The notes beneath the pieces are model-generated. The model was not told where the DNA came from. It ran no database searches and was given only the letters and a program-made list of their open reading frames with translations. Position numbers and translations under genes: made by a program. From a candidate division NC10 bacterium CSP1-5 (GTDB lineage: Bacteria > Methylomirabilota > Methylomirabilia > Methylomirabilales > CSP1-5), in NCBI GenBank assembly GCA_001443495.1, contig LDXR01000004.1, positions 62,001 through 126,000 of the forward strand: a stretch of DNA of 64,000 nucleotides, written 5' to 3'. Shown piece by piece: positions 2,214 to 46,950 of the stretch; the first letter of the stretch is position 1, and each line of letters starts with the position of its first letter.

Positions 2214-2744
2214 ATGGGAAAGCAGGCGAGCTTCTCTCGCTGGATATTCCTCAGCCTCTTGGGAGTGGTCGCCCTGGCCCTGTCGGCCTGGGCAGGGGCC
2301 TCCATGATCGGCACGCCGGCCCCGGAGCTTACCAACGAGGTGTGGATCAATTCCCGGCCGCTCCGCCTCGCCGATCTGCGGGGAAAGGTGATCCTCCTGG
2401 AGTTCTGGACGCACGGCTGAATCAACAGCCGGAACACCATCCCCCAGTTGGTGGATTGGCATCAGCGGTTCGGGGGCCAGGGTCTCGTCATCATCGGAAT
2501 CCACACACCGGAGTTCGATTGGGAAAAGCCTGTGGCCGGGGTGAAAGCGGCCTGTAACGTGCTCGGGATTCCCTATCCGGTCGCTTTGGATAACGACTTT
2601 GCCACCTGGAACCGTTACGGCACCGAGTACTGGCCGACGCTGCACCTGATCGACAAGCGAGGAATCATTCGGCGGACCCAAATCGGCGAGGGGGGGTATC
2701 CCGAGATGGAGGCGATGATCCGCCGCCTCCTGAGCGAGTCGTGA
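2214..2744 (+). CDS. Thioredoxin-like redoxin with in-frame TGA at the active site (putative selenoprotein)
   Basis: Read through the TGA at 2418-2420, this is one frame of 176 codons. An N-terminal signal anchor (about residues 10-30) precedes a DipZ/TlpA-type thioredoxin fold. The active site reads LLEFWTHG-UGA-INSRNTIPQL, where relatives of DipZ have FWTY..CINC; the TGA therefore replaces the first redox Cys (residue 69) and the second is Ser, giving a U-x-x-S site. Homology continues on the far side (VIGIHTPEFDWEK, WPTLHLIDKRG). ATG 2214 is chosen for GGAGGGA at 2204-2210. Lying beside ccdA, it is probably reduced by it. A sequencing error or a decaying pseudogene is the alternative. Confidence 0.75.
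2437..2459 (+). promoter_or_regulatory. Candidate bacterial SECIS element in the redoxin gene
   Basis: Stem CCATCC-C-CC against GG-U-GGAUUGG (one bulge and one mismatch) closes the loop AGUU at 2446-2449. The loop has G at its second position and begins 26 nt after the TGA, within the range described for bacterial SECIS. An alternative 5-bp stem CACCA/TGGTG (2435-2439/2449-2453) competes with it. Confidence 0.5.
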
Positions 2745-2762
2745 ACCTCCGGTATTAAGCAC

Positions 2763-2791
2763 TTGACAAAAAGGGGGGGGCCGAATATAGT
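2763..2791 (+). promoter_or_regulatory. Strong promoter of the small secreted protein gene
   Basis: TTGACA, a 17-nt spacer containing a G8 run, then TATAGT. The start would fall about 50 nt before the GTG at 2851. Confidence 0.7.
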
Positions 2792-2850
2792 CCGCGTCGC
2801 GCTGTATACCCCGCCGATGCTCACAATCCCACGCGAAAGGGGGTGATCCT

Positions 2851-3087
2851 GTGAAGAAGGTGCTTGGAATGATGGCCCTGGTCGTCGCCCTTCTCGTGCC
2901 CGCACAGGGCGTCATGGCCGGCGATTCAATGAAGATGATGCAGGAGACCCAACAGAAGCTCGATAAGGCCATGAAGATGATGAAAGACAAGAAGATGAAG
3001 ATGAGCCCGGACCAAGAGAAGAAACTGATGAAGATGCTCGACGATCTCAGCAAGGAACTCGATGTACTCCTGAAGGCGACCTTCTAG
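2851..3087 (+). CDS. Small secreted Met/Lys-rich protein
   Basis: 78 residues. A signal peptide (KK then a hydrophobic stretch ending QGVMAG) is followed by a mature part of about 55 residues extremely rich in Met and Lys (repeats of MKMM and KMKM), predicted helical. Methionine-rich periplasmic helices can bind copper or silver, but no fold is recognised and metal binding is inference. GTG 2851 is preceded by GGGGGTGAT. It has its own near-consensus promoter and a 15-bp hairpin downstream, so it is probably a monocistronic, well-expressed gene. Confidence 0.7.
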   Translation: MKKVLGMMALVVALLVPAQGVMAGDSMKMMQETQQKLDKAMKMMKDKKMKMSPDQEKKLMKMLDDLSKELDVLLKATF

Positions 3088-3110
3088 GCCTGGTCGGCAC
3101 GCAGTGTCCG

Positions 3111-3144
3111 GAAGGGGAGGGGTGGTTCACCACCCCTCCCCTTC
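3111..3144 (+). terminator. Strong GC-rich hairpin after the small secreted protein gene
   Basis: A perfect 15-bp inverted repeat (GAAGGGGAGGGGTGG and its complement) around the loop TTCA. No clear T tract follows, so it may act as an mRNA-stabilising stem or a Rho-assisted end. Confidence 0.55.
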
Positions 3145-3178
3145 TGCGTTATGGCGCTATGTCTCGCGACTTCATCCA

Positions 3179-3207
3179 TTGATTTTGCCCGCCGAGTCTG
3201 CTAGAAG
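3179..3207 (+). promoter_or_regulatory. Probable promoter for thrB
   Basis: TTGATT, 17 nt, TAGAAG, directly upstream of the homoserine kinase ATG; it would give a very short leader. Confidence 0.35.
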
Positions 3208-3214
3208 AAGCGTC

Positions 3215-4126
3215 ATGAGCGCCGGAGGACGCATACGGATTCGGGTGCCCGGCTCGACCGCCAATTTGGGCTCTGGCTTCGACGTGTTAGGCTTGGCCCT
3301 GGGCCTGTATAACACCATCGAGATGGAGGAGATCGCCCGGGGGGTCGAGCTGACCGTCGAAGGGGAGGGGGCGGACCGTCTGCAGCGGGACGTGGAGAGA
3401 TCCCTGGTGGTGCGGGCGGCCCGGGCCGCCTTCGCGCATCTCGGGGTTACCGCACCCGGTCTCCGGATCCATCTCAAGAACGCCATCCCCTTGAGGCGCG
3501 GGTTGGGCTCGAGCGGGACCGCATGCCTCGGCGGCGTTGTCGGCGCGGCGGAGCTCGTCGGCCGGCCCCTCGCTGTTGCCGACGTCTTGAAGCTCGCGCT
3601 CCCCTTCGAGGGACACCCGGACAACATCACCCCGTCCCTGGTGGGGGGTCTCACCGCCACCTGTGTGTCAGAGGGTGCGGTCCGATACGTGAAGATCCCG
3701 GTCCCCGATACCATTCGGATCGTCGCGGTGGTTCCGGACAGGGAATTGAGCACGGCGGAGGCCCGGCGGGCGCTCCCCCAACAGGTTCCGCTCACCGATG
3801 CGGTCTATAACGTGGGGCGGGCGGCCATGTTGGTCGGGGCGCTGGTCGCGGGCGATCTCGGTCTCCTCGATGAGGCGACCCGGGATCGGCTGCACCAGCC
3901 CTACCGGGCCAAGCTCTTGCCGGGAATGGAAGAGGTCTTCGAGGCGGGCCGTCGCGCCGGCGCCTTGGCGACCTTTCTGAGTGGGGCCGGCTCGACCGTG
4001 GTCGCCCTCGTCGAACGCGAGGCCGAGACGGTTGGTCGGGAAATGGTGGAGGCCTGGACAGCAAGAGGCATCCGCGCGCAGGCGAAGGTCCTCACGATCG
4101 ACCTCGAGGGGGTGCGACTTTCATGA
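3215..4126 (+). CDS. thrB: Homoserine kinase
   Basis: 303 residues of the GHMP kinase family, phosphorylating homoserine on the way to threonine. The motifs are in order: PGSTANLGSGFDVLGLAL near the N-terminus (substrate site), RRGLGSSGTACLGGVVGA (phosphate-binding loop), GHPDN, and the C-terminal FLSGAGSTVVAL. ATG 3215 is chosen because the family starts there; an upstream extension of 37 codons crosses the preceding hairpin and is unlikely. The stop overlaps the next start in ATGA. Confidence 0.93.
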   Translation: MSAGGRIRIRVPGSTANLGSGFDVLGLALGLYNTIEMEEIARGVELTVEGEGADRLQRDVERSLVVRAARAAFAHLGVTAPGLRIHLKNAIPLRRGLGSSGTACLGGVVGAAELVGRPLAVADVLKLALPFEGHPDNITPSLVGGLTATCVSEGAVRYVKIPVPDTIRIVAVVPDRELSTAEARRALPQQVPLTDAVYNVGRAAMLVGALVAGDLGLLDEATRDRLHQPYRAKLLPGMEEVFEAGRRAGALATFLSGAGSTVVALVEREAETVGREMVEAWTARGIRAQAKVLTIDLEGVRLS

Positions 4127-4704
4127 CAGAAGGCGAGCAGGCCAGGTCCCTCTACTGTATGAGCTGTGGGGAGGAGGTCCCCACGTACGCGGTGGAGGTG
4201 GCGGGAGGGGCAGAGACCCGGTGTGCCCCCTGCGGCTTCACCCTGGAGACGGTCCAGACCCCCCTCGGTTCGGTCCTCGAGTGCATCGTGCTGGCAGACG
4301 ACGAACTCCTCTTTCGCCAGCTCTTGAGCGACCTGTTGGTCGAGGAGAGGGTCGCCAGGGAGGTGGTCGGCTGTGAGACCGGTTCAGCGCTCCTCACCGA
4401 GTGCGTCCGGCGTTTCCAAGCCGAGCGCCCAATTTCGCTCGTCATCCTGGATATTGTGATGGCCCCCATGGATGGCGCCGTCGCCGCCCTGGCGCTCCGG
4501 GCTCTGGAAAAGGGGCTCGATCGGCCCGCTCCGGTGCCGATTCTCTTCGTCTCCGGGATGCGGGCGGACGACGCCATTCGCCGGATCGTCGAGCACTGTG
4601 GACCCGCGCTCTATCTGAATAAGGGCCAGGACGCCAGTCCACCCCGGCTGGCCCGCCGCCTCAAAGAGCTCATTCCACACCTGCTGACCGTGAGGTCCAG
4701 ATGA
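4123..4704 (+). CDS. Response regulator receiver protein with N-terminal zinc ribbon
   Basis: 193 residues. Residues about 10-40 form a CxxC...CxxC zinc-ribbon-like module (YCMSCGEE and RCAPCGF). A CheY-like receiver follows: the acidic pair ADDE, the phosphoacceptor Asp in LVILDIVMAPMDG, Ser in LFVSGM and Lys in LYLNKG. There is no output domain, so it probably signals by protein contact. It overlaps thrB by 4 nt, implying translational coupling with an unrelated metabolic gene. No partner kinase is in the window. Confidence 0.8.
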   Translation: MTEGEQARSLYCMSCGEEVPTYAVEVAGGAETRCAPCGFTLETVQTPLGSVLECIVLADDELLFRQLLSDLLVEERVAREVVGCETGSALLTECVRRFQAERPISLVILDIVMAPMDGAVAALALRALEKGLDRPAPVPILFVSGMRADDAIRRIVEHCGPALYLNKGQDASPPRLARRLKELIPHLLTVRSR

Positions 4705-43934: not shown

Positions 43935-44016
43935 CGACTGTGAACAGTGAACGGTGAACCGTGAACGCTACTGCCGGTTTTGACTTTCAATCTGTGAACG
44001 GTGAACCGTGAACGCT
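43935..44016. repeat. GTGAACGGTGAACC-type tandem repeat
   Basis: Two blocks of three or four GTGAAC/GTGAACC units (near 43939-43967 and 43993-44015). Related single runs occur at 43338-43372, 43830-43862 and 40550-40590. The gap 43723-44019 is filled by these and holds no gene. Confidence 0.75.
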
Positions 44017-44019
44017 CCT

Positions 44020-44868
44020 ATGACACGGGTGGGCATTTTCTATCATGAAAGCTTCAGCCGGCGGAGCTATCTGACCGTCGGCCGGCGATTGGCCGATTTC
44101 CCTGCCGCCCTCGACGAGCTCTTGCAGGACGAGCGGTTCCGCCTCTACCGATGCTCCGAGGCTGACGATCGGCTCATCCTCCAGGTCCATCGTCCCGCGC
44201 TCATTCCGGAGGTAGAGGCGGACCCGCTGTGAAGCACCGCCAGGGCCTCGGTCGGAGGCGTCGTAGCGGCGGCAGAAAAGATCTGCGTCGGCGAGTTGGA
44301 TCGGGCGTTTGCCTTTATCGGTGCGGGCGGGCACCACGCGGGGGTGGATTTCTTCGGCGGCTACTGCTGTTTCAACGACGTCGCCATCGCCATCGCCCAC
44401 CTCCGGAACACCTACGGCGTCCGCCGGTTCGCCATCCTCGACACCGATGCCCACCATGGCGATGGGACGCGGGACATTGTCCAGGAGGACCCCGATGTCC
44501 TCCACGTCTGCATCTGCGGCATGAACTATGTCTCTCCGGACGGGACCAAGGTCGATGTCCCCGCCCCCTGGGGAGGCCGTGACCCGGACGAGGCGTATCT
44601 GAAGACGGCGGAGTCTGCCTTTGCCTCGAGGGTCCGGGACTTTCGGCCGGATCTCACCGTCTGGTACTTCGGCTTTGACGGGCACCGGGGAGACTACGGA
44701 GATATGGGACTTTCCCTTCGCTGCTTTGTGGGACTCGCCGATTTCATGGTTGGAGCAGCCCGGGATGCCTCAAGCGGCAAGCTCCTCACGGTTTTGGGAG
44801 GAGGCTCCCGCACCGACCTCGCCACAATGATCATCCCCCAGGTCATCCACCGCCTCGGCGCGGAATAA
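44020..44868 (+). CDS. Class II histone deacetylase-like protein with in-frame TGA (putative selenoprotein)
   Basis: 282 residues read through TGA at 44230-44232 (codon 71). Part one (VGIFYHESFSRRSYLTVGRRLADFP...LILQVHRPALIPEVEADPL) and part two (STARASVGGVVAAAEK...FAFIGAGGHHAGVDFFGGYCCFNDVAIAIAHL, LDTDAHHGDGTRDI, VCICGMNYVSPDG, DGHRGDYGDMG) are one arginase/deacetylase fold with the zinc ligands and the GHHA catalytic pair present. The TGA sits between them in the same frame, probably at a conserved Cys. ATG 44020; GTG 44008 is possible. Confidence 0.78.
44245..44259 (+). promoter_or_regulatory. Candidate bacterial SECIS element of the deacetylase gene
   Basis: GCCUC/GAGGC stem closing the loop GGUCG (44250-44254), 17 nt after the TGA. 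The loop is identical to that of the rhodanese gene. Confidence 0.65.
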
Positions 44869-44909: not shown

Positions 44910-45752
44910 TCACCGAGGGAGGTGGAGAGCGAGGCATTTGGCGGAGCCTCCGGCCTTGAGGAACTCGGAGAGGTCCAGCTCGACCACCTCAAAGCCTCGC
45001 CGCTCCAGCTCCTTGCTGAGCGGCCTGGACATCCCGCGGTGCAGGATCACACGCCGGTCGATCACGACGGCGTTGCAGCAGAATCGGAGCGCATCGGCCG
45101 TGGAGACGGGCACCGGGTCGGGGACGTTGGTCTCTATGACCTTCCACCCGTAGCGATCAAAGGCTCCGGGATACCAGAGGGCCGATGTGGCATCAAGGGG
45201 ACAAAAGCACGTATCGAGGTGGTAGAAGCGCTTGTCAACGAGCTCCAGGGGCAGGACCCGACGCCTCAGAATCTGTGCGAGCCGCTCATGCACTATGGCA
45301 TCCGAGCGGAATCGAAAGCCGAGGAACACAGTCTCGCCCACCGATAGCGCATCCCCTTCGCCTTCGAAGTTGAACTGTCTGGGCAGCGTCACCACGCGAT
45401 AGCCGCGCTGTCGGAAGTACCGCTCGAAGATCGCCTCTTCTCCACGGCGCTCGGGATGGCGGAAGTTCGTGCGGACGAACGTGTCGCCCGCCACCAGCCC
45501 CGCATTCGCCGTAAAGACCAGGTCGGGCAATCGCTTTACTGGCCGGACGAGCTTGATGGGCACCCGGAGCCTGCGCGTCAACAGGTCGTATAGGGCCTGC
45601 CACTGGCGGGCGGCCACGGGTTGAGTCACCTGCCTCGTGACCCTCATCCAGGGGTTGATCTCGTACGCGATGGTGTAGTGACGCGGGCGGCACATCAGGA
45701 GCGCCAGGGATGGGAGCGTGCCGTCTCTAGCGGGGCGATAACTTGAGCGCAT
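44910..45752 (-). CDS. Arginine dihydrolase/DDAH-like amidinohydrolase
   Basis: 280 residues of the guanidino-modifying superfamily. DLVFTANAGLVAG, FNFEGEGDALSVG, FYHLDTCFCPL (active-site His) and the C-terminal GGSAKCLALHL (nucleophilic Cys) are present, as in the N-terminal domain of cyanobacterial AgrE/ArgZ, which removes both guanidino nitrogens from arginine to give ornithine. ATG 45752 overlaps the next gene by 26 nt; ATG 45695 is also possible. Probably works with the downstream-named gene as a split AgrE. Confidence 0.75.
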   Translation of the reverse strand: MRSSYRPARDGTLPSLALLMCRPRHYTIAYEINPWMRVTRQVTQPVAARQWQALYDLLTRRLRVPIKLVRPVKRLPDLVFTANAGLVAGDTFVRTNFRHPERRGEEAIFERYFRQRGYRVVTLPRQFNFEGEGDALSVGETVFLGFRFRSDAIVHERLAQILRRRVLPLELVDKRFYHLDTCFCPLDATSALWYPGAFDRYGWKVIETNVPDPVPVSTADALRFCCNAVVIDRRVILHRGMSRPLSKELERRGFEVVELDLSEFLKAGGSAKCLALHLPR

Positions 45753-46950
45753 GGCAGAGTTCCCGCAGGAACGAGGCCGCGTCCGAGACGATGCCAATCC
45801 CCTGGAAGGTCCCGCGATCGGCGAGCTTTGTCACGACGGCCGGGTTGATGTCGACGCAGATGGTCTTGACCGTGGCCTGAAGCAGGTTCCCGGTGGCAAT
45901 CGCATGGAGCGTGGAGCCGATCATGAGGGCCAACCCCACCCCTTTGAGATGGCGGCGCATCTCATCCTGGGCTTTGAGCACATCGGTGATCACGTCCGGC
46001 AGGGGGCCATCGTCTCTGATGGAGCCGGCCAGGACGAACGGGATCCGGTGCCTGACGCAGGCGTGCATGATGCCCTTGGTCAAGACGCCCTGGCGGACTG
46101 CCTGGCGGATGCCTCCACAGGCGCGGATCGTGTTGATGGCGCGCATGTGATGGTCGTGGGTGTCCCGGACCGGACCCCTGCGATCGAGCGAGACGCCGAG
46201 GGAGGTCCCAAAGAGGGCTGACTCGATGTCATGGACTGCCAGCCCGTTGCCGCCAAAGAGCACATCGACATATTTCACCTCGATGAGCCGCTCCAGGTAC
46301 CGACCGCCTCCGGTATGGACGATGGCCGGGCCTCCAACGACGAGGATCTTTCGCCCGGCCTGCTTCGCGGACCGCATCGCCCCGGCGACGCCGTCGATGA
46401 GGAGGCCCTTAGGCTTCTCGGACGAGACCGCGCTTCCCATGAACTGAAAAACATCCTTGTGCCTCGACCGCTCGAGGGGGGTCACGCGGACGCCGGTCGT
46501 GCCGCAGGCGACGAGATTCCCTTTTCTGACGTGGGTCACCGGGACACACCAGGCCCGTGCGGTCCGGGGATCGATCACGATCCCACAGTCCATCTCGATG
46601 TTCTCCACCGACCGCCAACGCCCCTGATACCGCACGGCGGTGGGTAGATTCGTCGTGGAGTAGAAATCGGTGGGGAAGACGCCGTCCTGTCGCGCGCGGA
46701 CGAGCTGAACCTCGTGCAGGGTGAGGGGCGTGGCCCCCAACCGGGCCAGCCGTTTGAGGATGGCCTGGAGCTTTTGCTCGGACGTCGCACTGACCTTCAG
46801 GCGGGCGGTCGAGGGATCGGTCTTGCGTTTGCCGACGGCGATCTCGAGAATCTCGAAGGTCCCGTCGAGATCGATGATCTCATCCAGAATCTTCGGGAGG
46901 ATCAACGAATCGAGAATATGCCCACTGACCTGGACGGTTTCAGAGACCAT
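45727..46950 (-). CDS. TIGR00300/LOR-SDH-domain protein, ornithine cyclodeaminase-like
   Basis: 407 residues. N-terminal VSGHILDSLILPKILDEIIDLDGTFEILEIAVG, then ATPLTLHEVQLVRA, VACGTTGVRVTPLERSRH, ILVVGGPAIVHTGGGRYLERLI and LLQATVKTICVDINPAVVTKLADRG are family landmarks. This domain is the C-terminal half of AgrE/ArgZ and, in archaea, an ornithine cyclodeaminase producing proline. The ATG 46950 lies after a long structured leader; the gene precedes and overlaps the amidinohydrolase. Confidence 0.85.
   Translation of the reverse strand: MVSETVQVSGHILDSLILPKILDEIIDLDGTFEILEIAVGKRKTDPSTARLKVSATSEQKLQAILKRLARLGATPLTLHEVQLVRARQDGVFPTDFYSTTNLPTAVRYQGRWRSVENIEMDCGIVIDPRTARAWCVPVTHVRKGNLVACGTTGVRVTPLERSRHKDVFQFMGSAVSSEKPKGLLIDGVAGAMRSAKQAGRKILVVGGPAIVHTGGGRYLERLIEVKYVDVLFGGNGLAVHDIESALFGTSLGVSLDRRGPVRDTHDHHMRAINTIRACGGIRQAVRQGVLTKGIMHACVRHRIPFVLAGSIRDDGPLPDVITDVLKAQDEMRRHLKGVGLALMIGSTLHAIATGNLLQATVKTICVDINPAVVTKLADRGTFQGIGIVSDAASFLRELCHALKLSPR

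Follow-up and report, generated by a model that had tools for sequence, protein, structure and literature searches.

Within the window, the stretch of 64,000 nucleotides that was analyzed here, a gene on the forward strand at positions 44020-44868 very probably is intact and encodes a histone deacetylase superfamily member that is a selenoprotein, with selenocysteine (Sec) predicted to be inserted at an in-frame UGA at positions 44230-44232. The initial annotation had described both parts of a deacetylase lying in one frame and separated by this TGA, and had called the N-terminal part family-like as well. Both descriptions hold: the TGA is the sole stop within the frame that runs from the ATG to a TAA stop codon, and the N-terminal part, like the C-terminal part, aligns with uninterrupted full-length homologues. 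The read-through product has 282 amino acids, with the predicted Sec as residue 71 (DPL-U-STAR), and matches the Pfam family Hist_deacetyl (PF00850) with an E-value of 1.7e-41. Among 14 Sec genes, the median dN/dS is 0.24 on the 5' side of the TGA and 0.18 on the 3' side, and both halves of the gene are under purifying selection. Directly 5' of the start codon, at 43940-44013, lie five overlapping copies of the repeat GTGAAC(R/C)GTGAAC, for which 0.08 copies are expected per whole window.

To assess the in-frame TGA across relatives, we searched the same phylum and found the gene family in 17 of 95 genomes. Sixteen of these carry a single in-frame stop, in every case a TGA at the same codon; one of them (G032) has two copies of the gene, and the TGA is present in each. 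The seventeenth genome (G007) has TGC at the Sec71 codon. Going by the names of matching public contigs, these genomes fall into Candidatus Methylomirabilota (NC10), one MAG among them bearing the label Rokuibacteriota, and the TGA is shared among 16 species from several families. Cys forms outside Methylomirabilota were drawn from 80 loci kept after a scan of public genomes. They place Cys, encoded by TGC or TGT, at residue 71 in Thermodesulfobacteriota, Archaeoglobus, Geoglobus, Aquificota, Desulfovirgula, Ammonifex, and other groups. When the TGA is read as Cys, the residue 71 column is invariant in the 47 aligned family members, so that homologues carry Cys exactly where the initial annotation had looked for it (DPL-C-ST). 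Homologues that start after the TGA, which had been named as evidence against Sec, do not occur among the family members. No in-frame stop was found in any of the 57 family matches from 395 genomes of the phylum of Desulfoferrobacter. As far as sampled, the Sec form thus appears confined to one lineage, and the Sec genes fall into three supported groups on an unresolved backbone of the family tree, which is compatible with a single origin of Sec as well as with several.

The comparison with the Cys forms also bears on whether the locus represents one gene or two. Open reading frames are present at 44008-44232 and 44296-44868, as would be expected of a short N-terminal peptide followed by a downstream domain that restarts at TTG 44296 or nearby. 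However, the Cys forms are single uninterrupted open reading frames of the same length, and a restart would lose the conserved helix that directly follows the TGA. On these two grounds the split-gene reading was rejected, and we consider it very improbable.

The host genome contains the components needed for the Sec reading of the UGA. A tRNA-Sec (UCA) was confirmed by ARAGORN, SelB is encoded about 5 kb from it, SelA is also encoded, and SelD is itself a predicted selenoprotein with its own Sec codon TGA (GAG-U-ACK). The genome-wide search for Sec genes that the initial annotation had proposed as a check recovered tRNA-Sec, SelB, SelA, and a Sec-type SelD. Together with an in-frame UGA aligned with the Cys of homologues and a bSECIS-like hairpin, the presence of SelABD and tRNA-Sec is shared with the known prokaryotic selenoprotein families (PMC13188914). 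Among the Cys-form genomes, SelB scored above the cut-off in 10 of the 12 that were tested and below it in two Archaeoglobus genomes, indicating that Cys is retained even where the capacity for Sec use exists. In the host phylum, G007 (loci L011 and L128) is the single genome with a Cys form, and it likewise contains SelB; its best tRNA-Sec candidate fell below threshold and was called tRNA-Leu.

Low-level near-cognate readthrough would be compatible with the sequence, and in this lineage the TGA might in principle stand for a standard amino acid (Trp, Gly, Arg, or Cys) through reassignment or readthrough. Such a reading has no specific support, and it is opposed by an exchanged residue that is always Cys, by several orthologues of the HDAC-like gene that terminate in TGA, which is therefore also a normal stop in this Methylomirabilota group, and by the full Sec machinery of the genome. 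It was rejected on this evidence, and its probability appears to be very small. A pseudogene, a recent nonsense mutation, or an assembly error could explain a stop that breaks the frame, but this reading has a next to negligible probability and was rejected, as it is contradicted by a TGA conserved across species and families, always at the Cys position, and by low dN/dS on both of its sides.

Downstream of the UGA, a hairpin at 44245-44259 (GCCUC-GGUCG-GAGGC, loop at 44250-44254) represents a candidate bSECIS element, which we compared with the bSECIS model of PMC13188914. It consists of a 5-bp stem and the 5-nt loop GGUCG at a spacing of 17 nt, with a stem energy of -7.9 kcal/mol. The stem starts at nucleotide 13 after the TGA and the loop follows after 17 nt, in agreement with the initial annotation. 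As evidence for Sec, the hairpin of this single sequence proved weak, given that in GC-rich coding sequence of this kind synonymous recoding yields at least equal stability in 32% of trials, which is not beyond chance. What stood was that the Sec genes as a group preserve the stem. In raw counts that ignore kinship, 4-5 of the 5 central stem pairs are formed in all 16 distinct Sec-gene sequences, compared to 1-4 (mostly 2 or 3) in 62 Cys genes and 1-3 in 25 high-GC Cys genes. In three sequences, C-G replaces G-C at one stem pair (alignment columns 19-33), and there an Ala-to-His change goes along with a silent change of a Gly codon. Residue 75 is Arg in every Sec gene and nearly always Trp or Tyr in the Cys genes; the uniform Arg75 would fit a coding sequence under constraint from the RNA. 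One of the sequences, L014, departs from the strict hairpin rule. Across the Sec genes, the conservation of the TGA and of the stem is beyond chance.

The predicted structure of the protein (pLDDT 89.3, pTM 0.91) is confident except for residues 110-114. Comparison with the PDB identified HDAC6, HDAC4, the Bordetella/Alcaligenes HDAH, Acinetobacter Kdac1, and related proteins as structural neighbours, with TM-scores of about 0.8. The protein thus shares the fold of class II HDACs and bacterial HDAC-like amidohydrolases at about 24% identity, and the catalytic histidines, the zinc ligands, and the Cys of the GFC/GYC motif are common to both. The zinc and catalytic motifs lie 3' of the TGA, as had been claimed: the histidine pair His105-His106 (GHHA) at 44332-44337, the zinc ligands Asp143-x-His145 at 44446-44454, and the third zinc ligand Asp220 at 44677-44679 are all invariant in the 47 members. 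Profile match, fold, and these residues place the protein in PF00850.

In contrast to class II HDACs and HDAH, the protein has a shortened loop L2, and Ser263 (44806-44808) aligns with their catalytic Tyr. The Tyr near the C-terminus that characterizes active class I/IIb lysine deacetylases is absent from this protein, and the word deacetylase is therefore a fold-level name only. Of the earlier designation as a selenoprotein deacetylase, the predicted Sec is supported, whereas the enzymatic part does not extend beyond the fold. Due to the replacement of Tyr by Ser, zinc-dependent hydrolysis itself is unsure.

The protein is further set apart by its cysteines. In the 47-member alignment, Cys (or Sec at 71) is invariant at residues 71, 116, 117, 164, and 166. 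Cys116 and Cys117 (GGYCCFND) are encoded at 44365-44370, and Cys116 aligns with the Cys found in all HDACs (HDAC8 C153). The Cys164-x-Cys166 motif (44509-44517) is conserved in the wider clade and replaced by Ser and His in ordinary PF00850 proteins. Sec/Cys71, Cys117, Cys164, and Cys166 are missing from these ordinary relatives, which a long branch of the tree separates from the clade of the Sec protein. No NCBIfam model matches the Sec protein or its clade, including any curated model for AcuC; PHROGs returned no match to the protein, and plasmid and phage records contained distant PF00850 proteins only. Judged from its sequence and modelled structure, the protein has retained the zinc site and fold of HDACs, but its clade is a separate one, rich in cysteines and devoid of the catalytic Tyr.

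A canonical AcuC-like PF00850 paralogue is encoded on host contig C7 (L125:4777-6012, minus strand), directly upstream of selA (2715-4151 in the coordinates of L125) and on the same strand. The two proteins belong to one superfamily, but the AcuC-like paralogue retains the catalytic Tyr (LALGGGGY), whereas the Sec protein is without an NCBIfam match.

Gene neighbourhoods, compared in Methylomirabilota and at other loci, gave no function for the HDAC-like protein. Upstream genes for an FlK-type thioesterase and RtcA are syntenic within Methylomirabilota and not elsewhere. In the window, a protein resembling the C-terminal part of ArgZ and LOR/SDH (45727-46950, minus strand) adjoins a DDAH/arginine deiminase-like protein (44910-45797, minus strand), and these separate neighbours resemble a split ArgZ-type arginine dihydrolase. 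In Archaeoglobus, the Cys form adjoins a gene resembling AMP-forming acyl-CoA synthetases (L118, L108, and L115), and at L108, L115, and L106 it adjoins two CoA-transferase-like genes, all names being read from sequence. As a weak hint, these neighbours recall AcuC-like deacylation, and the acyl-CoA synthetase and CoA-transferase proteins are perhaps targets of the Cys form.

The shortened L2 loop precedes residue 71, and L3 contains Cys116 and Cys117. In the family and its deeper relatives, Cys117 co-occurs with Cys/Sec71 in 51 sequences and is found in none of the 19 sequences without Cys71 (raw counts ignoring kinship, with L148 included and L150 left out). L138 is the single case of Cys71 without Cys117, and Cys116 is independent of residue 71. 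The deep relative L134 (G339:C141:4420-5235), whose genome encodes another family member next to it, carries Leu in place of His145 and Asn in place of Asp220, yet keeps Cys71 and Cys117. Due to this co-occurrence and the retention of both residues in L134, we propose that Sec71 and Cys117 form a redox pair at the active-site rim, a proposal that we hold to be evenly balanced between right and wrong. Cys116, considered as the partner of Sec71 by analogy with HDAC8 C153, was dropped for Cys117 on the evidence of the deep relatives. Where zinc ligands have been lost, relatives may work with the Cys pair alone.

A precedent exists in HDAC8, where C102 in L2 and C153 in L3, at a C-alpha distance of 6.7 Å, are linked by a reversible disulfide that inactivates the enzyme (PMC6174833). 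The Sec protein would likewise combine a reactive L2 residue with an L3 Cys by the active site, here as predicted from sequence. The two arrangements differ in that Sec/Cys71 is not aligned with C102 and the covarying Cys117 lies one residue past the C153 equivalent.

Sec71 could also be catalytic, serving as a nucleophile, acid, or zinc ligand that offsets the missing Tyr instead of forming half of a redox switch. The Ser at the Tyr position, the invariant Cys/Sec at residue 71 in the clade, and the location of this residue on the loop along the active-site rim of HDACs (loop L2 of HDAC8) would fit such a role. However, L134 retains Cys71 and Cys117 without the zinc ligands H145 and D220, and residue 71 is tied to residue 117. 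Furthermore, the deeper relatives without Cys71 mostly lack the Tyr as well, which indicates that Cys71 is not needed as its substitute. A catalytic Sec71 seems rather unlikely, though the least so among the alternatives.

SelB and tRNA-Sec very probably decode the UGA as Sec, presumably aided by the short downstream bSECIS hairpin. In the proposed redox mechanism, Sec71, situated where the helix following L2 begins, would form a reversible selenenylsulfide with Cys117 of L3 beside the zinc pocket. Depending on the redox state, this bond could inactivate and reactivate a zinc-dependent deacylase, similar to the C102-C153 switch, or the Sec71-Cys117 pair could act as a redox centre in its own right. 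The use of Sec in place of Cys would allow a faster switch and offer protection from irreversible oxidation. We give roughly an even chance to the wider proposal that the Sec71-Cys117 centre gates or even replaces hydrolysis in a new selenoprotein family, which would provide the first zinc-dependent deacetylase selenoenzyme.

Among the prokaryotic selenoproteins catalogued so far, thiol oxidoreductases, hydrogenases, dehydrogenases, and metal-handling proteins predominate. The initial annotation had not regarded deacetylases as an established selenoprotein class, and the fullest catalogue found, of May 2026, bears this out, as none of its 119 prokaryotic selenoprotein families is a PF00850 or deacetylase entry (PMC13188914). 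A Sec-containing deacetylase was also not found in the literature searched. According to PMC13188914, Deng et al. 2026 (Cell Rep 45:116760) reportedly identified 63 predicted selenoprotein genes in a single MAG of Methylomirabilota, and these candidates may include the HDAC-like gene without naming it. Annotation that treats UGA as a stop cuts the gene, which in Methylomirabilota genomes has therefore probably escaped notice or been entered as a fragment. If confirmed, the protein would be the first selenoprotein in the histone deacetylase superfamily. Sec in an HDAC fold would extend the use of selenium to a hydrolase superfamily with major drug targets and would point to selenium-based redox control of the active site, so that redox control of HDACs could be tested in a natural high-reactivity variant.
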